Assembly: GCA_012517355.1 (NCBI GenBank)
Contig: JAAYVD010000106.1
Coordinates: forward strand, 1 to 46,114
Direction: 5' to 3'
Source: Candidatus Rifleibacteriota bacterium
GTDB lineage: Bacteria; Muiribacteriota; Ozemobacteria; Ozemobacterales; Ozemobacteraceae
DNA: 46,114 nucleotides
Positions 1-29,503 of the stretch are shown in pieces (the stretch's first letter is position 1; every line of letters starts with the position of its first letter). The position numbers were made by a program, and so were the translations under genes. The notes under the pieces are model-generated. The model was given only the letters and a program-made list of their open reading frames with translations. It was not told where the DNA came from and made no database searches.

Positions 1-3
1 AAG

Positions 4-272
4 GCCGTGCACCCACCTTCGAACCCTGACAATGACCCATTTCCCTAACCTTCCGCTCGGGACAGGCGCCTCCACATCACCCGGAAACTGGCGCTTACCG
101 TTGCTTCCTTCCGGATCTGGCGGGGTTCACGGGTTTCCGCCGTGTGGAACCCATCCTTCGACGCTTCGGGAAAGGGCTGCGATCACCGCCAGAGCCCTCT
201 GATAGGAATTCAGCCCGCCATGACGGGGATTTGCGGTTGATAGAGGACCCCGAGCCCTCCGCTTAGCACGAC
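4..272 (-). ncRNA. ffs: Long (Alu-containing) signal recognition particle RNA
   Basis: Reading the minus strand, the SRP core GATCCGGAAGGAAGCAACGG lies near 90-110, with the GGAA tetraloop and asymmetric loop that bind Ffh. The 5' GTCGTGC (272-266) pairs with the 3' GCACGGC (10-4), and an Alu-type 5' domain (GCTAAGCGGAGG followed by a CGCAAATCCCC-like stretch) is present. The molecule is therefore the roughly 270-nt Bacillus-type long form, not the 4.5S form. It acts in co-translational targeting of membrane proteins. Its predicted 5' end directly abuts the 3' end of tRNA-Ser(GGA), so it probably comes from the tRNA transcript. The exact 3' end may lie a few bases outside the window. Confidence 0.9.
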
Positions 273-275
273 AAC

Positions 276-362
276 GGAAAGGGTGGGATTCGAACCCACG
301 GTGGAGTTTCCCCCACTCACGCTCTCCAGGCGTGTGCCTTAGACCAACTCAGCCACCTTTCC
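276..362 (-). tRNA. tRNA-Ser(GGA)
   Basis: An 87-nt class II tRNA with acceptor stem GGAAAGG/CCTTTCC, a long variable arm, T-loop GGTTCGAATCC and anticodon loop CTGGAGA, giving anticodon GGA (codons UCC/UCU). The discriminator base is G, as expected for serine. No CCA is encoded; the next bases already belong to the SRP RNA. Confidence 0.95.
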
Positions 363-402
363 AAGAGCAACCAGGACCTTCCTGGGGATACCTCAAACGG
401 GC

Positions 403-493
403 GGAGAGAGAGAGATTCGAACTCTCGAGAGACCATTTCGGGCCCCTACTCGATTTCGAGTCGAGCGCTTTCGACCAACTCAGCCATCTCTCC
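403..493 (-). tRNA. tRNA-Ser(CGA)
   Basis: A 91-nt class II tRNA with acceptor GGAGAGA/TCTCTCC, long variable arm and anticodon loop CTCGAAA, giving anticodon CGA (codon UCG). Discriminator base G; CCA not encoded. Confidence 0.95.
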
Positions 494-503
494 TCGTTAC
501 AGC

Positions 504-577
504 GCGCCTGAGAGGACTCGAACCTCTGGCCACCAGATCCGCAATCTGGTGCTCTATCCAAACTGAGCTACAGGCGC
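504..577 (-). tRNA. tRNA-Arg(GCG), unusual anticodon
   Basis: A 74-nt class I tRNA with acceptor GCGCCTG/CAGGCGC and D-arm GCTC...GAGC. The anticodon stem is CCAGA/TCTGG around loop TTGCGGA, and the T-arm is AGAGG TTCGAGT CCTCT. U33 is in place, so positions 34-36 read GCG (codons CGC and CGU). Most bacteria read these codons with tRNA-Arg(ACG) modified to ICG. All stems pair perfectly, so this looks functional. Confidence 0.93.
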
Positions 578-593
578 AAACATCACTTTCGGC

Positions 594-682
594 GGAGAAG
601 GGGGGATTCGAACCCCCGGTAGAACTTTCGCCCTACGCCGGTTTAGCAAACCGGTGCCTTAAGCCAACTCGGCCACCTCTCC
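594..682 (-). tRNA. tRNA-Ser(GCT)
   Basis: An 89-nt class II tRNA with acceptor GGAGAGG/CTTCTCC (one G-U pair), anticodon stem CCGGT/ACCGG and loop TTGCTAA, giving anticodon GCT (codons AGC/AGU). Discriminator base G; CCA not encoded. Confidence 0.95.
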
Positions 683-694
683 CCATGCTGGGTC

Positions 695-776
695 GGAGGA
701 AGTAGGATTCGAACCCACGAACCTTTCGGTTTCCGGTTTTCAAGACCGGCGCCATCGACCGCTCGGCCATTCCTCC
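695..776 (-). tRNA. tRNA-Ser(TGA)
   Basis: A class II tRNA with acceptor GGAGGAA/TTCCTCC, anticodon stem CCGGT/ACCGG and loop CTTGAAA, giving anticodon TGA (codons UCA/UCG/UCU). It is the promoter-proximal member of the cluster. Discriminator base G; CCA not encoded. Confidence 0.95.
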
Positions 777-22893: not shown

Positions 22894-22913
22894 TTTTGCC
22901 TGAGGAGGCAAAA
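22894..22913 (+). promoter_or_regulatory. Hairpin enclosing the xer Shine-Dalgarno and start
   Basis: TTTTGCC (22894-22900) pairs with GGCAAAA (22907-22913). The loop TGAGGA plus the first stem bases GG form the strong TGAGGAGG Shine-Dalgarno, and the last A of the stem is the A of the ATG. The ribosome-binding site would be partly sequestered when folded. This could tune recombinase translation (inference). Confidence 0.5.
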
Positions 22914-23806
22914 TGGCGTCCGACCTATTGGAACAATTCCTGGCCTACCTTTCGGTGGAGAAGGGGCTTCGCCCGAAAAGCCTCGAGGCCTACCGCAAGG
23001 ATCTCCAGGATTTCCTCGCCTTCCTCGCCGAAAAGAACCGGAGTCCGACCGACCCCGCCCTGGAGAGCCAGGTGACCCTGTTCATGGTCCATCTGCACGA
23101 CCGGGGCCTGGCGCCGCGCTCGGTGGCCCGCAAGGCCTCGGCGCTGCGCGGATTCTTCCGGTTCCTGGTGCGGGAAGGGATGATCACCGGCAACCCCACC
23201 CGGGTCATGGAGCGCCCCAAGATCGGGCGGCCCCTGCCCAAGGTGCTGTCGGTCCATGAGATCGAACAGCTGCTCGGGCAGGAATTCCCCGCCACCCCGC
23301 TCGGCCTCCGCGACAAGGCGATCCTCGAAACCCTCTATGCCACGGGTATCCGCGAATCGGAACTGATCGGCCTGGAGATGGGCAGCCTGCACCGCGAGGG
23401 CGAGTTCCTCACCGTCATGGGAAAGGGGGGGCGGGAGCGGGTCCTTCCCATCGGGGGGTTCGCCCTGGCCGCCATCGACGCCTACCTGCTCCAGGGTCGC
23501 CATGCCCTGATCAAGGACGTGACCGTCCGCACGATGTTTCTGAATCCCCTCGGCCAGGCCCTGTCACGGATGGGGGTCTGGAAGATCGTCCGCAAATGGG
23601 CTTTGCTGGCGGGTCTCACCCGCCCCCTGTCGCCCCACGTCCTGCGCCACTCGTGCGCCACCCACATGCTTGAGGGAGGCGCGAGCATCCTGGCCGTGCA
23701 GGAGATGCTCGGCCACGTCGATATCGCCACCACGCAGATCTACACCCATCTGACCACCACCGACCTCAAAGAGATCCACCGCAAGGCCCACCCCCGCGGC
23801 GAATGA
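22913..23806 (+). CDS. XerC/XerD-type tyrosine recombinase
   Basis: 297 residues. An N-terminal SAM-like core-binding domain (about 1-90, YLSVEKGLRPKSLEAYRKDL) is followed by the catalytic domain. The full catalytic set is present: Arg in ATGIRESEL, Lys in GKGGRERV, His-x-x-Arg in HVLRHSCATH, His in LGHVDIATTQ and Tyr in IYTH. The length and HVLRHSCATHMLEGG motif are those of chromosomal Xer recombinases that resolve chromosome dimers at dif. No adjacent inverted repeats or cargo suggest an integrase. I saw no obvious dif site in the window. Its stop overlaps the next gene's ATG (ATGA). Confidence 0.88.
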   Translation: MASDLLEQFLAYLSVEKGLRPKSLEAYRKDLQDFLAFLAEKNRSPTDPALESQVTLFMVHLHDRGLAPRSVARKASALRGFFRFLVREGMITGNPTRVMERPKIGRPLPKVLSVHEIEQLLGQEFPATPLGLRDKAILETLYATGIRESELIGLEMGSLHREGEFLTVMGKGGRERVLPIGGFALAAIDAYLLQGRHALIKDVTVRTMFLNPLGQALSRMGVWKIVRKWALLAGLTRPLSPHVLRHSCATHMLEGGASILAVQEMLGHVDIATTQIYTHLTTTDLKEIHRKAHPRGE

Positions 23807-26800
23807 ACGCACCTGCGCGGGGGAAGGCGGCGCCCGCGGGCCGGATGACCGGCCCGGCGGGAAACCGTGCGCGGCCGACGTCCATGATTTCTTCCGGGCA
23901 GGCGCGACCCCGGTTCGCGGAACCCGACCGTGGGGATTCCGGACGGGGTGCGCCTTCTCCAGGGCCCCCGACCACTGGTTCGCCAGGGCCTTGGGGTCCC
24001 GATCCCGTGTGCGATTCCGCGGGCAATCCCGCGTGCAATCCCGCGTGGCATCCATCGATTCGGACCGGCCTCCGGACTCTCCGCGCCGTCTTCCAGAACC
24101 AGATCCGGGCGCTGGGGAACCGGTTTCCGCGCCGGCTTCTCGCCCGGCTCCTGGCGGGACTGGTCGCTCTGCTGTTGCTGGTCGAGTCACCGGTCGCCTG
24201 GGCCGGAACCGCTTCCCTCGCCCGCCGGCCGTTTTTCGGAACCACCACCCCGCGCGCCCTCTCCCTTCCCGGCGGCGCCGCAGCCCCGGGGGGCAGTCGT
24301 TCCGCATCCGCCACCGCCCCGCTGTCCACGGCGGGCAAAGGGAAGACCGCCTCTCCCACGGCGACGATCGCCTCGGGAAGCCGGTCGTTGCCCCGCACCA
24401 CCCCTCGCACCCCGCCCCGGGCCGGCACCCCGGCCAGAAAGCCGGCGCCCACCGGCCCGGCCCGATCTGCCTCTTCCACCGCGGCGATCGGTTCGGGAAC
24501 CCGGGCCCTGCCACACCCCACATCCCGGTCTGCCTCCTCCACGCCGACGATCGCCTCGGGAGCCCGGTCCCTGCCTCGCACCACCCCTCGCACCCCGCCC
24601 CGGGCCGGCACCCCGGCCAGGAAGCCGGCGCCCACCGCCCCGGCCCGATCTGCCTCTTCCACCGCGGCGATCGCTTCGGGAACCCGGGCCCTGCCACACC
24701 CCACATCCCGGTCTGCCTCCTCCACGCCGACGATTGCCTCGGGAGCCCGGTCCCTGCCTCGCACCACCCCTCGCACCCCGCCCCGGGCCGGCACCTCGGC
24801 CAGGAAGCCGGCGCCCACCGGCCCGGCCCGATCTGCCTCTTCCACCGCGGCGATCGGTTCAAGAACCCGGGCCCTGACCCTCACCGCATCTCGCCCGGCA
24901 CCCCTGCCTGGGAAAACCGCTTCCGTGGCTGCCCGTGTTCCTCCCCCACCCGCCGTTGGGAAACCGGCCCCCCGACCGGCTTCTCCGCGACCCGCCGCCC
25001 CCCAGCACACGGTTCTGGCGAAGAAACCAGCCCGGATGGGCTCTCCGTCCCGCTGGGAACCGCTCCCCATGCAACTGGATGAGGCGCCCCTCCCGACGGG
25101 AAAGTCGGCCGCCGCGGCCCGCCCGGCTTCTCCCCCGGCACCTTCCACGGCCTCCCCCCGCCCCGCCGCCCCTGCAGGGGCTTCCATTGCGGCCACGGCT
25201 TCTCCTGCCAGTGGCAGGGTGGACACGGGGCTCCGTCCGTCCGGCCCCGCCACCCCCGCACCGACCACCTCTACCGCCGGGTCCCAACCCCGCCAGGTGA
25301 GCCCCGCCGCGCCCTCCCCTCCCGCCTCCGCCGCCCCCCGCCCCGTCGGCCCCGCTCCGACCCGCTCCGTGACCACCCCGACGACGGCCACCGCCGTCTT
25401 CCAGGCGGGCGTCGATGACGCGGTGGTCATCCTGCCCCCCGGCGCCCCGGACGACGATCCCTGGGAAACCGCCCAGCGAGAGGACGAGCGCAAGCTCGAC
25501 ATCTCCGGCACCAAGACCTTCGAGATGAAGAAGGCCGACGTCAAGGGCGACATCGGCCATTTCTCGACCGAGAACTACGACTCCATCCCGGGGTTCCGCC
25601 TCGATCAGAGCCTTCACCTCGAGATCGACGGTAACATCACCCGCACCTCGCGCGTCAACGCCGTCCTCGACGACAAGGACGACGAGGACCGTCGGTTCAC
25701 CGTCAACATCGACGGGCCGAAGTGGGACCTCGTGATGGGCGACTTCCCCCTCGCCGTGCCCGACACCGAGTTCGTCCTGCACAAGAAGGAGGTGCGCGGG
25801 GTGATGGCGATGGGCGGGTTCCACCCCGAGTGGCAGTTCCTGGGCCTGTTCTCCCAGTCGAAGGGCCAGGCCCGCCGCGAGCAGTTCCGCGGGGCCGGCC
25901 AGCAGCAGGAGTTCCGCCTCCTCAGCCAGCCGGTGGTCCAGAACTCGGAGCGGGTGACCGTCGACGGCAAGGTCCTGGTGCGGGGAACCGACTACCTGAT
26001 CGACTACGAGGACGGCATCCTCAAGCTGCAGCCGCACATCCTGCCCATCGAGCTCACCAGCTGGGTCGTCGTCGAATACGAGGTGACCGACGAGGCCCAG
26101 GCCTTCAAGCGCAACCTCGGCGGGATCCGGGTCATCCACCTGCACGGGGCCAGGGCCGACCGCCGGCTCGGCTTCTCCTGGGTGCGGGAGATGGACGCCA
26201 CCACCCCGAAATCCGAGGCCAACGCCTCCGGTACCAGCAGCCCCATGGACCACCAGATCATCGGGTTCGATGCCGACTGGAAGCTGTCCGACTGGGTGTC
26301 GCTGGCCGGCGAGACCGCGCTGTCCCTCTATGATCCCAACCGCAACAACGACGAGACGGCCCAGGACCAGGCGATCAAGGACCGGGCCTGGCGCCTGACC
26401 CTGCGTGCCGACGGCGAGCGGCTCGACGGCGAGGCCGCGATCCGGCGCATCGGCAAGGATTTCAAGCTGGTCGGCCGGGAGGGCGGGGTGACCGAGCTTG
26501 GCGAACGCGGCCTGGTCAACGATCTGCTCAAGCAGACCGGGCGGGTCACCTTCCTGCTGCGGCCCGACCTCAGCCTGTTCGGCACCCTCGAGAAGTCGCG
26601 CACCAACCTGTCCGACGACCCGACCGTGTCGAGCATCGATTTCTCGGAAGGGACGGGCGGCGCCACCTGGAAGTTCAAGCCCCGGTCGCAGGTCGAAGGG
26701 CGGCTGGGTTACCAGACCGACCGGGAGACCGGGCCCACCGTGCAGTCCGACCTCGGCCGGAAGATCGGGGCCCTCGTCTGGGACCACGATTTCGGCCGGT

Positions 26801-27990
26801 TCTTCACCCAGTCGAAAGTGGAACACACCCAGTACAGCGACGACCTGCACGATGCTTCGGGGTCGACCGTCCTGCAGCTGCAGTCGTCGATCGGCAGCGA
26901 CCAGGACAAGGCCTTCAAGTGGTCCCTGGGGGCGGGCCGCCTTACCGTCGACGACGCGCTCGACCCCGACCGCCTCCGCTCCGAAACGCGCAACTACAGC
27001 GTCGATCTCAACTACGAGCCCAACCGGGTGCTGACCGCGCGCGGCATCTTCCAGTGGCGCACCGAGGACGACTTCCTGGCGAACTCGCGCCAGGAGGACC
27101 AGATCGCCGATTCCCGGTTCCGGTACCAGCCGAACCGCGACCTGCGGACCGATCTGAAGTACAAGGTCGAGAACACCTCGAAGGTGATCCGCGATGCCTC
27201 CCTCGATGCCAAACGCTACACGCTTCCCAACAGCCTCCCCAAGTCGACCCAGGACGAGGCGGAGGTGCTCAACCGGTTCGAAAACCCGGTCCAGAAGACC
27301 ACCGCCAACCTCTCGTGCAACTACCAGCCGCGTGACAATGTCGAGGCCTTCTTCGACTGGAAGCGGCGGAACCTCGACGACCGCACCACCTGGAAGGAGG
27401 TCTCGTTCAACGACCGCAAGACCTACGAACTGCGTTATACCCCGCTGCGGCAGTTGAAACTTTCCACCGAGTATGAGAACGGGCTGGCCCGGGTGGCGAC
27501 CCCTTCCTCGGAACTGCGGGACTCGCTCAAGCGGGTCGGGGCGAGGTACGAGTTCCTCGAGGGCTATGTCGTCGATACCAAGATCGAGGAGCACGACGAG
27601 AACGACGTCTACATCGACGACAACGACAAGCGGACCCTGAGCAAGGCCCTCGACTTCCAGCGGATCTTTTCGCCCTACGCCACGCTGGAGGCGGGGGTCC
27701 AGCGCAACATCATCACCTACAAGGACCCGAGCAAGGAATGGGAGACCCGGGCGGCGGTCGTGGTGACGCCCTCGGCCCGCAGTCAGCGCTACCGCCTGTT
27801 CATCAACCACACCTCGATCGAGTCGGCCAAGCCGGGCTCGAAGGTCGAGGGCGGGCTCGACTTCAGCCAGCTGATCGGGGCCGACACGATGATCGACGGG
27901 GAGATCAAGAAGGTCAAGGCTACCGAGGGCATCTCGGGGAACGGGTATGACGCGTTCATCGCGAACGCCAAGGCGGTCATCACCTTCTGA
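23803..27990 (+). CDS. Large secreted SprA-like / outer-membrane beta-barrel-like protein with Pro-rich repeats
   Basis: 1,395 residues; the ATG overlaps the xer stop. About 105 Arg/Pro-rich residues precede a hydrophobic export-signal-like segment (about 110-136, LAGLVALLLLVESPVAWA). A long Pro/Ala/Ser/Thr/Arg low-complexity stalk follows (about 140-540), including three 61-residue tandem repeats. After an acidic junction (DDDPWETAQREDE) the rest is beta-rich, with strand-turn patterns to a C-terminal ITF, suggesting a barrel. A segment VTVDGKVLVRGTDYLIDYEDG resembles repeats in SprA/Sov-type translocon proteins. Function unknown; the true start could lie nearer the signal. Followed by the large ncRNA. 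Confidence 0.65.
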   Translation: MNAPARGKAAPAGRMTGPAGNRARPTSMISSGQARPRFAEPDRGDSGRGAPSPGPPTTGSPGPWGPDPVCDSAGNPACNPAWHPSIRTGLRTLRAVFQNQIRALGNRFPRRLLARLLAGLVALLLLVESPVAWAGTASLARRPFFGTTTPRALSLPGGAAAPGGSRSASATAPLSTAGKGKTASPTATIASGSRSLPRTTPRTPPRAGTPARKPAPTGPARSASSTAAIGSGTRALPHPTSRSASSTPTIASGARSLPRTTPRTPPRAGTPARKPAPTAPARSASSTAAIASGTRALPHPTSRSASSTPTIASGARSLPRTTPRTPPRAGTSARKPAPTGPARSASSTAAIGSRTRALTLTASRPAPLPGKTASVAARVPPPPAVGKPAPRPASPRPAAPQHTVLAKKPARMGSPSRWEPLPMQLDEAPLPTGKSAAAARPASPPAPSTASPRPAAPAGASIAATASPASGRVDTGLRPSGPATPAPTTSTAGSQPRQVSPAAPSPPASAAPRPVGPAPTRSVTTPTTATAVFQAGVDDAVVILPPGAPDDDPWETAQREDERKLDISGTKTFEMKKADVKGDIGHFSTENYDSIPGFRLDQSLHLEIDGNITRTSRVNAVLDDKDDEDRRFTVNIDGPKWDLVMGDFPLAVPDTEFVLHKKEVRGVMAMGGFHPEWQFLGLFSQSKGQARREQFRGAGQQQEFRLLSQPVVQNSERVTVDGKVLVRGTDYLIDYEDGILKLQPHILPIELTSWVVVEYEVTDEAQAFKRNLGGIRVIHLHGARADRRLGFSWVREMDATTPKSEANASGTSSPMDHQIIGFDADWKLSDWVSLAGETALSLYDPNRNNDETAQDQAIKDRAWRLTLRADGERLDGEAAIRRIGKDFKLVGREGGVTELGERGLVNDLLKQTGRVTFLLRPDLSLFGTLEKSRTNLSDDPTVSSIDFSEGTGGATWKFKPRSQVEGRLGYQTDRETGPTVQSDLGRKIGALVWDHDFGRFFTQSKVEHTQYSDDLHDASGSTVLQLQSSIGSDQDKAFKWSLGAGRLTVDDALDPDRLRSETRNYSVDLNYEPNRVLTARGIFQWRTEDDFLANSRQEDQIADSRFRYQPNRDLRTDLKYKVENTSKVIRDASLDAKRYTLPNSLPKSTQDEAEVLNRFENPVQKTTANLSCNYQPRDNVEAFFDWKRRNLDDRTTWKEVSFNDRKTYELRYTPLRQLKLSTEYENGLARVATPSSELRDSLKRVGARYEFLEGYVVDTKIEEHDENDVYIDDNDKRTLSKALDFQRIFSPYATLEAGVQRNIITYKDPSKEWETRAAVVVTPSARSQRYRLFINHTSIESAKPGSKVEGGLDFSQLIGADTMIDGEIKKVKATEGISGNGYDAFIANAKAVITF
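24346..24894 (+). repeat. Three tandem 183-bp repeats inside the envelope gene
   Basis: Units begin at 24346, 24529 and 24712. Each encodes 61 residues built from SLPRTTPRTPPRAGTPARKP, then SASSTAAI.SGTRALPHPTSR-like text. Units 1 and 2 are nearly identical in DNA and unit 3 diverges at its end. This suggests recent unequal duplication and possible length variation between strains. Confidence 0.92.
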
Positions 27991-28053
27991 TTCTCGAAAA
28001 TCAGCATCGGCAAAGGGTTTCCCTGGTTCCGAAAACATTTCTTGATTTTCTTC

Positions 28054-28082
28054 TTGACAGGGAAGGCCCTTTGGGGTAACTT
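28054..28082 (+). promoter_or_regulatory. Promoter of the large noncoding RNA
   Basis: A perfect TTGACA (28054-28059), a 17-bp spacer and TAACTT (28077-28082). The predicted start, about 28089, coincides with the first base of the 5' strand of the RNA's closing helix. A small hairpin (CTGATT/AATCAG, 27987-28004) closes the preceding gene. Confidence 0.75.
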
Positions 28083-28088
28083 GGGTTT

Positions 28089-29212
28089 GTTGAGTGGTTG
28101 GTTCTTTGATAAGCGAACTGGTGGCCGAAAGGTTTGGGCTTCTGAACTCCGGTCGGTCCTCTATGGGTGTCCTAAGCGGGTTTTTCGAGTGTTGGTGACA
28201 ATGTCTCGGTGCCCACAGGGAAACGATAACCTCGGTATCCCAAGGTCCTAAGAGGAAGTTCAAACCAAAAGGCAGAAACTCCATGAGGGAAGGTGCTCCG
28301 TTTGCGGAGTGGCCATCTCCGGCAGCAGAAGAACCCTAAGGGGGTCACAACCCCGCAAGGGGGAGGGCTTTACGGCCCAGGGTCGCCGGGGAGGAAAACC
28401 CTGAAGGAGGCACGGTCAAGAGAGGCGCACTCGCGCCGGGGGGGTGAAACCCTTTGGCGAGATGAGGCAGGTCTGGTCGGGAGCAACGCTCCAGGGCCGG
28501 TCCAAGTCCAAGATGGCAGCCAGCCGTTTCAAAGACGGTCAGGGGCTGTGTCTGACGGGTCGTCGCCAGCGTAGTGGCGCGGCGGCCGGGCGGTCGGGAA
28601 CCGCACGACGGACACGGAAGGAAACCATGAAGGACAGGATGACGGCGGAGGAGCCCGGGACTGGAAACAGCACCCGATCGATCAGATCGAGACCTTTGCA
28701 GACCGCAACCCTAGGAGTGCCAGCGGGGTGGAATAAACCCGCAAGTTGTCGCGGACGTCGTCCCTGCCGGGAGGTTGTGAAAACCTGTGGGCGGGGAGCA
28801 GCAGGTCTGGAAGCCTGTTCCGCACGTCGGGCAATGATGGCGCTGAAAGGGACAAAACCCAGGAAGGCACCGGTTCCCAGCCGGTGTAGGGGTATGCAGA
28901 ACCTTGCAGTCGACCGAAGCCTACAAGAGGATAGAGGACGGAAGCGAAAGCCGAAGTTCGGCGGTTGTGTAAGGGCCTCGTGGGTGGTGATGAACACCTG
29001 AGGCTTGACGTAACCAATGCGCGTCATAGCGCAACCGCGTTAACACTCTAAAAGGTACGAAACGACAAGAAGGGGCCGACCGTTCCGGTAACGGGGCGGC
29101 GGACGTATACCCTGACATGCCTTCGATAAGGAAAACCAGTTCGCTATCAATCGTTCCGGCCACTCAACACTTTTTAGCCAAAGCCCTCCCGCGCCTCTGC
29201 GGTGGGGCTTTT
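28089..29212 (+). ncRNA. Very large structured noncoding RNA, family not recognised
   Basis: About 1.1 kb without a convincing gene. Its ends pair: GTTGAGTGG (28089-28097) with CCACTCAAC (29160-29168). After a small internal loop, TTGAT-A-AGCGAACTGG (28106-28121) pairs with CCAGTTCGCT-ATCAA (29136-29150), leaving one bulge. Next inside, GGTTTGGGCTTC (28131-28142) pairs with GAAGTTCAAACC (28255-28266) in a 12-bp helix with two G-U pairs. Many local hairpins follow: CTCCG/CGGAG near 28296, CCCC-GCAA-GGGG near 28350, GGCGC/GCGCC near 28424, CGCCA/TGGCG near 28564, CACCGG/CCGGTG near 28868, TGCGC/GCGCA near 29018 and CCGTT/AACGG near 29089. Recurrent A-rich GAAAACC linkers and TATGG/CCTAAG receptor strands suggest tertiary folding. 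It is not rRNA, tmRNA or RNase P by eye; OLE, GOLLD and ROOL were not excluded. Confidence 0.75.
29180..29212 (+). terminator. Intrinsic terminator of the large noncoding RNA
   Basis: A 13-position stem with one mismatch (AAAGCCCTCCCGC 29180-29192 with GCGGTGGGGCTTT 29199-29211) around a 6-nt loop, ending in TTTT. A separate TTTTT (29171-29175) directly follows the closing helix, so termination could also occur there. Confidence 0.8.
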
Positions 29213-29503
29213 CGCTGTCAGGGGCCGCCTCGCCGGCTGTCATCGTGGTTTCCGTCGTCGTGAAAGGCTTGCCCTTCCCCATCGGCCCCCGCGCGCGACG
29301 CGGGGGCTCCCACCGCCGGCTGGTTCTGAAGCGGGCACGGTGGCGGTCAGACCCAAGGGTGTCCCCTCCCGGCCATAGTCAGTGGTGGCATAGATCCAGG
29401 TCTGGTCCCCACAGGAGCGGCGAAGGATGTCGGACGCCAGAGGGTGGATTCGGAAGGGGGTGAAGCCAGGCACCCGCGCCTACGCATGGGTGAGGAGCCG
29501 GTC
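29213..29503. other. Gene-poor gap with a GC hairpin
   Basis: No supported gene. CCCCCGCG (29286-29293) pairs with CGCGGGGG (29299-29306) around CGCGA, a very stable hairpin without a U-tract. A minus-strand open frame at 29240-29473 looks like chance coding. Nothing else is recognised. Confidence 0.4.

Follow-up and report, generated by a model that had tools for sequence, protein, structure and literature searches.

Known bacterial RNAs that match the one described here in size and structure number only a handful, and several of them are phage-borne. In the parts of the literature covered, OLE, GOLLD and ROOL are presented as highly structured noncoding RNAs of more than 500 nucleotides (nt) whose function is poorly understood, and ROOL can equal 16S ribosomal RNA (rRNA) in abundance (PMC12286853, PMC5643018). 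GOLLD is located in phages or prophages, often near transfer RNA (tRNA) islands. The raiA-motif RNA (ModT), which is chromosomal, structured and conserved, came to light through comparison when its function had yet to be found; it occurs in more than 2,500 species belonging to other phyla (PMC11706538). Here we describe a noncoding RNA gene of about 1.08 kilobases (kb) at positions 28088–29169 (+ strand) of a 46,114-nt contig of Candidatus Rifleibacteriota (JAAYVD010000106.1, assembly GCA_012517355.1); the whole contig is called the window, and coordinates count from its first letter. That this is a real structured noncoding RNA gene is near certain. We read its product, with a probability of roughly three in four, as a previously undescribed, lineage-specific housekeeping RNA that is rRNA-like in its expression.

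A preliminary description, prepared from the letters of the window alone, had placed an ornate large RNA of an unrecognized family at this locus. The comparisons below support that interpretation: the RNA is comparable in kind to OLE, GOLLD and ROOL and is a member of none of them. It differs from all three in the lack of any sequence or covariance-model match, in its greater length (about 1,080 nt), in a boxA between covarying end helices and in homopurine 3 × 3 internal loops; no boxA is reported for OLE, GOLLD or ROOL in the portions of the literature covered. Unlike ROOL and GOLLD, it was not found in phages or plasmids but is chromosomal and nearly universal in its order, and, unlike the tRNA islands near GOLLD, the tRNA genes of the window lie 27 kb away. 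ModT is much shorter, and the loci homologous to the RNA contain no Rfam match to it. The RNA is longer than the large structured bacterial RNAs known to us.

Conserved fold and absence of a conserved reading frame

The consensus fold was derived from an alignment of 20 full-length sequences, which are 61–86% identical to the window by BLASTN and have a mean column identity of 68%. RNAalifold predicts 265 base pairs (bp) for these 20 sequences; in 185 of these pairs, one or more sequences have changed on both sides and kept the pairing. The alignment folds at −276.1 kcal/mol with a covariation term of 49.4, whereas 22 column shuffles, performed among columns of like conservation and gap pattern so that the relatedness of the rows was preserved, give −26 to −48 and terms of 2.4–5.9. 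The covariation in homologues that the preliminary description had named as a check is thus very strong and survives this control. The opposite strand of the alignment folds at −141, and the single-sequence fold of the window reaches −481.6 compared with −423.8 (s.d. 9.5) for dinucleotide shuffles. A long noncoding RNA with such extensive covarying structure belongs, as a kind, to the large ornate RNAs.

The consensus resembles a wheel, with P1, the inner of two end helices (P0 and P1), closing a loop and five domains branching from it:
28124–28273, + strand: domain I, with a 12-bp covarying stem and a GUGA tetraloop
28280–28408, + strand: domain II, defined by the consensus fold
28414–28704, + strand: domain III, the largest, with GNRA loops and three 3 × 3 homopurine loops
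28709–28851, + strand: domain IV, the basis of covariance models R1 and R3, also present in a second family
28858–29131, + strand: domain V, with a GURA tetraloop; its core (28902–29073) is covariance model R2

The 12-bp helix that had been proposed to close the first domain is present (28131–28142 with about 28257–28268), and the local hairpins, put earlier at more than seven, number 19 in the consensus. When the second family (f8, see below) is included, 95.6% of the cells of domain IV are paired and 32 of its 42 pairs display double changes, and no shuffle reaches any of these measures. Because that alignment was fitted to the model, sliding it provides the fairer test; the slid controls pair at 38–46%. 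In one genus (L022 of G006, 227–1233) the central part is shortened: domain III lacks its end and domain IV most of its length, although P0, boxA, P1 and domain V are intact. This is either a true reduction or a fault of assembly.

A GC-rich protein gene, or overlapping frames, would be suggested by a plus-strand frame of 185 amino acids (aa) and a minus-strand frame of 162 aa that are open in the window. The former, however, contains stops in 19 of 19 other sequences, including those of the same genus, and the latter stays open in two same-genus copies only; a 93-aa frame of the window is likewise not kept among homologues. Insertions and deletions also ignore codon length, and the pairs covary. 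As no frame is conserved, a protein-coding region was ruled out, and this explanation, to which we assign next to no probability, is already refuted as far as sequence can refute it. The lack of a convincing gene in the preliminary description is borne out, all three frames being broken in nearly all homologues.

Comparison to known RNA families, the other check proposed, returned nothing: Rfam 15 gave no match at gathering score, and no credible one for the window at E values up to 5 or for eight homologous loci at E values up to 1; the OLE, GOLLD and ROOL covariance models matched neither the window nor these eight loci. The small-subunit (SSU) and large-subunit (LSU) rRNA models gave no match either, so the RNA does not qualify as an rRNA fragment or variant. 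Low-scoring Rfam matches (HTT-AS1_3, leuA-Halobacteria, Phe_leader, MIR2275 and others) were far under the curated cut-offs or outside the RNA and were discarded. A giant divergent RNase P RNA or tmRNA was rejected because the window genome has ordinary copies of both; among the genomes searched, RNase P RNA is found in 21 of 22 and an above-cut-off tmRNA in 16 of 22.

The size of the RNA, its five or more domains, its GNRA loops and its closed ends are compatible with a large ribozyme or the remnant of one, for instance a group II intron-like element, with catalytic activity in its own processing or in some other reaction. Yet no intron or ribozyme family of Rfam scores even at E values up to 1–5, and the gene is intergenic, with a promoter and a terminator of its own; it disrupts nothing and is accompanied by no reverse transcriptase. 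A group II intron proper was rejected on the lack of an Rfam domain-model match and the intergenic position, and catalysis in general appears unlikely.

Promoter, end helices and terminator

The elements at the two ends of the gene are as follows:
28054–28059, + strand: −35 box TTGACA; TTGAC in 22 of 22 homologues examined
28077–28082, + strand: −10 box TAACTT, weak in the window; many homologues have TATATT, TATACT or TAGACT
28088–28101, + strand: 5′ strand of P0, the outer leader–trailer helix; transcription start predicted at its first bases
28102–28113, + strand: boxA-like antitermination site TTCTTTGATAAG (consensus GATCTTTGACAA), conserved in all homologues
28112–28122, + strand: 5′ strand of P1, the inner closing helix (alignment columns 36–45 with 1127–1136)
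29135–29145, + strand: 3′ strand of P1, in covarying pairing with 28112–28122
29156–29169, + strand: 3′ strand of P0, assigned by complementarity; a T5 run (29171–29175) follows directly
29180–29213, + strand: intrinsic terminator, consisting of the hairpin 29193–29208 plus TTTT

The promoter named in the preliminary description, TTGACA-17-TAACTT, is present and of the sigma-70 type, and its −35 box is kept in homologues, but the −10 box of the window is weak when taken alone (3 of 6 positions). The boxes are 17 nt apart in the window, and a TA-type −10 box is found at 16–18 nt in nearly all of the 22 homologues. The −10 box lies about 6 nt upstream of the point where the end helix begins, and homologues keep this distance.

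The same description had joined the two ends by a helix of 9 bp followed by about 15 bp with one bulge. This helix corresponds to P0 and P1, but its middle is the conserved boxA, which has no conserved pairing. P0 comprises 14 bp with G-U pairs allowed (28088–28101 with 29156–29169). In most homologues it remains complementary despite changed sequence (strand pairs GTTGAGTGATCGAT/ATCGGTCACTCAAC, GGTTAAATGACC/GGTCATTTAACC, GTTGAAC/GTTCAAC and TGTGAACTTAG/TTAAGTTCACA), and in the second family GCTTTGAACAA is complementary to TTGTTCAAAGC (pair TGCTTTGAACAA/TTGTTCAAAGCA); P0 is weak or unclear in L007, L020, L021 and L023. P1 comprises 11 bp and covaries along its whole length, with exchanges of UA/GC and CG/AU/UA. 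Sequence identity drops sharply outside the transcript.

The predicted terminator was located as the local hairpin and its T run, in addition to the T5 run right after the end helix. In the genus of the window and several others, TTTTTA lies immediately 3′ of the outer helix strand (window 29156–29176). Because TTTTTA follows at once, the 1-kb-spanning P0 might itself serve as a terminator stem, ahead of the local hairpin.

A boxA-like site in a pre-rRNA-like layout

In Escherichia coli, boxA is necessary and sufficient for the recruitment of antitermination factors, the leader–trailer helix is essential for 30S formation, and in pre-rRNA the helix and boxA go together (PMC10250234). In every homologue of the RNA described here, GATCTTTGACAA or a close variant is situated between the 5′ strands of P0 and P1, 12–27 nt from the predicted start. 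The 16S–23S spacer of Ca. Ozemobacter sibiricus carries GATCTTTGACAAG. In a second genome (G018) the 23S gene has its own TTGACA promoter followed by GCTCATTGACAATAA, and the RNAs of the same genus carry GATCATTGACAATAG, so that TCATTGACAATA is common to the pre-23S site and the RNAs. In these two genomes, which have readable rRNA leaders or spacers, the boxA of the RNA matches that of the organism's rRNA, as in an rRNA-type antitermination unit. By position and sequence the site is the boxA of this lineage and a putative binding site for NusB-S10. At the 23S gene of G018 (L113), which seems to have its own promoter and boxA, no obvious 16S gene is present just upstream, which suggests unlinked rRNA genes.

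As promoter, P0/P1 and boxA occur in pre-rRNA order, the RNA combines pre-rRNA-type cis-elements with an unrelated body. It shares with pre-16S and pre-23S RNA the succession of promoter, leader strand, boxA, body, trailer strand and terminator, and its boxA motif is that of the family's pre-23S; it differs in that the body has no SSU or LSU match, the gene stands alone and boxA is placed between two end helices. That these elements work as they do in pre-rRNA is what we infer from their arrangement. The boxA site, this layout, the homopurine loops and the distribution described below had escaped the preliminary description.

A layout of boxA and helices in common with pre-rRNA, together with the multiple copies in one genus, as is often the case for rRNA genes, could point to an RNA associated with translation or the ribosome. 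Such an RNA would have its synthesis coupled to S10/NusB and ribosome assembly, and it would either provide a platform for assembly or sense the growth rate by titrating Nus factors or ribosomal proteins. However, boxA alone accounts for the need to transcribe a long untranslated RNA, and the body contains no known ribosomal protein site in the Rfam scans. This role is improbable, though it remains the least so among the alternatives to a housekeeping RNA of its own kind.

3 × 3 homopurine internal loops

The consensus holds nine 3 × 3 internal loops. At the outer and inner mismatches of these loops, 348 of 360 cells are A·A or G·G, and the two interchange; in 2,000 shuffles the number of homopurine cells averages 299 and never exceeds 314. 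The loops also emerge without an alignment: single-sequence minimum-energy folds contain 7 homopurine 3 × 3 loops in the window, 7 in L105 and 2 in L108 of the second family, 1–6 in other members and 0–1 in shuffles. The 16S, 23S, RNase P RNA and tmRNA of these bacteria, folded likewise, contain none. A literature search returned no account of a 3 × 3 homopurine rule, and we know of no description of one. The interchange of A·A and G·G in nine repeated loops makes a clean target for structural study of what may be an undescribed RNA building block.

Distribution and copy number

With 28040–29240 as the query, BLASTN found the RNA in every genome of the genus and in 21 of the 24 Ozemobacteraceae genomes, which represent the whole order as sampled; the R2 covariance model, built on the domain V core, lifts this count to 23 of 24. 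The distant family f8, outside the order, is matched by R2 and by R1, the domain IV model, the latter in 4 of 4 genomes at E values of about 1e-7 to 1e-8, and a covariance model from the window's family alone scores f8 at 42–49 bits. In f8 the promoter, P0, a boxA-like site, P1 and the terminator are all present in order. R3, the domain IV model rebuilt with f8 members, adds no further family. With these three models no credible match was obtained in 12 genomes of the phylum belonging to families f2–f7, in which the RNA is absent or too diverged. A degenerate domain IV pattern run over 84,980 species gave 18 matches, all on Riflebacteria/Ozemobacteraceae contigs. Judged by these homologues, the RNA has been kept for very long in part of one little-known phylum, the Riflebacteria. 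Two records that carry the RNA are titled Erysipelotrichia bacterium (L029, SABV01000126.1) and Candidatus Methylomirabilis sp. (L035, DYKG01000060.1), and these titles are probably wrong.

The gene is single-copy in most genera, present twice in G012 and multi-copy in genus g10 (four in G016, three in G015). Several of the g10 copies (L078, L074, L081 and L082; G015, G016) are found at the ends of contigs, which is usual for repeated genes in a draft assembly.

Large ornate RNAs are a typical feature of phages, and in the window, as in two other genera, an Xer/integrase-type recombinase gene is found upstream of the RNA with a single gene in between. The RNA could thus be a phage- or element-borne RNA of the ROOL/GOLLD type that turned resident, with the tyrosine recombinase gene as its mark. 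There is, however, no match to it in 50,697 phage records or 72,556 plasmid records, nor, by pattern, in IMG/VR, and a phage, plasmid or viral element was rejected as its present carrier on this ground. Near-universality in the order, variable neighbours and deep divergence fit a chromosomal gene, and a phage origin is slightly more doubtful than catalysis or a ribosome-linked role, all three being of lower weight than a housekeeping RNA.

Proposed synthesis and role

Comparison of the homologues demonstrates a gene of its own, a boxA, closed ends and a conserved fold; abundance and NusB-S10 binding follow from these by inference. In the mechanism that we propose, RNA polymerase would start at the first base of P0, and NusB-S10 would bind boxA and make the elongation complex Rho-resistant; Rho would otherwise halt transcription of a 1-kb untranslated RNA. 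On emerging, the trailer would pair with the leader and, in the manner of pre-rRNA leader–trailer helices, close the molecule and protect it, and the product would be a stable and abundant RNA. Least certain is the function: the repeated 3 × 3 modules and tetraloops may make it a structural scaffold rather than a cis-regulator or messenger, either with proteins in a ribonucleoprotein particle or alone as a homo-oligomer, the latter modelled on OLE, ROOL and GOLLD in vitro. By analogy to these RNAs, the chances for and against a scaffold role are about balanced.

Several points weigh against a housekeeping RNA with rRNA-like expression. Its expression level, ends, processing and stability are all deduced from sequence, the scaffold or oligomer role is drawn from analogy, and boxA is a putative site with its binding predicted. 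The rRNA comparison covers two Ozemobacteraceae genomes, most of these draft genomes lacking rRNA genes, and the boxA-like site of the second family is less canonical (CAGTTTGACAAG). The window's −10 box is weak, with 3 matches of 6, and a simple scan leaves it unlisted.

In favour of a housekeeping RNA, presence on the chromosome in most of an order, and in a distant family besides, gives the gene the look of a housekeeping gene. Because of its long conservation, its apparent rRNA-type expression and the lack of a family on record, the RNA probably represents a major component of these cells that has gone unrecognized. An rRNA antitermination signal at the 5′ end suggests, in a form that can be tested, how a cell transcribes an untranslated kilobase in spite of Rho, and it predicts abundance. 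We advance only tentatively, and with more doubt than confidence, that this is a new major class of cellular RNA, made by the rRNA antitermination machinery at near-rRNA levels, assembled into a large particle via 3 × 3 homopurine modules and constant as a component of Riflebacteria; if true, it would be another RNA machine or scaffold on the scale of rRNA. The literature search, limited to papers available without subscription, turned up no report of such an RNA from Riflebacteria.

Neighbouring genes

Upstream of the RNA, the window carries a tyrosine recombinase gene and then a very large outer-membrane-barrel-like gene (22913–27990, + strand). The pair is found just upstream of the RNA in three genera (also at L027, L029 and others), and the barrel-like gene, which encodes 977–1395 aa and has no Pfam match, occurs alone upstream of it in several more. 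The RNA has no fixed neighbour; downstream genes differ and are found in either orientation. A link to a neighbour gene was rejected: the order recombinase-barrel-RNA recurs in some genera, but neighbours differ elsewhere and their Pfam functions are unrelated.

The recurrence of the same barrel-like gene just upstream, on the same strand, in several genera would fit a long 5′ or 3′ untranslated region, or a riboswitch-like cis-regulator of a neighbour. The RNA, however, has its own promoter and terminator, its conservation is limited to the transcript, and the genes downstream vary in identity and orientation, so that such a region is highly improbable. At the far end of the window (1–776, − strand), a large-type signal recognition particle RNA (Rfam Bacteria_large_SRP) is followed by five tRNA genes (four Ser, one Arg) in one cluster.
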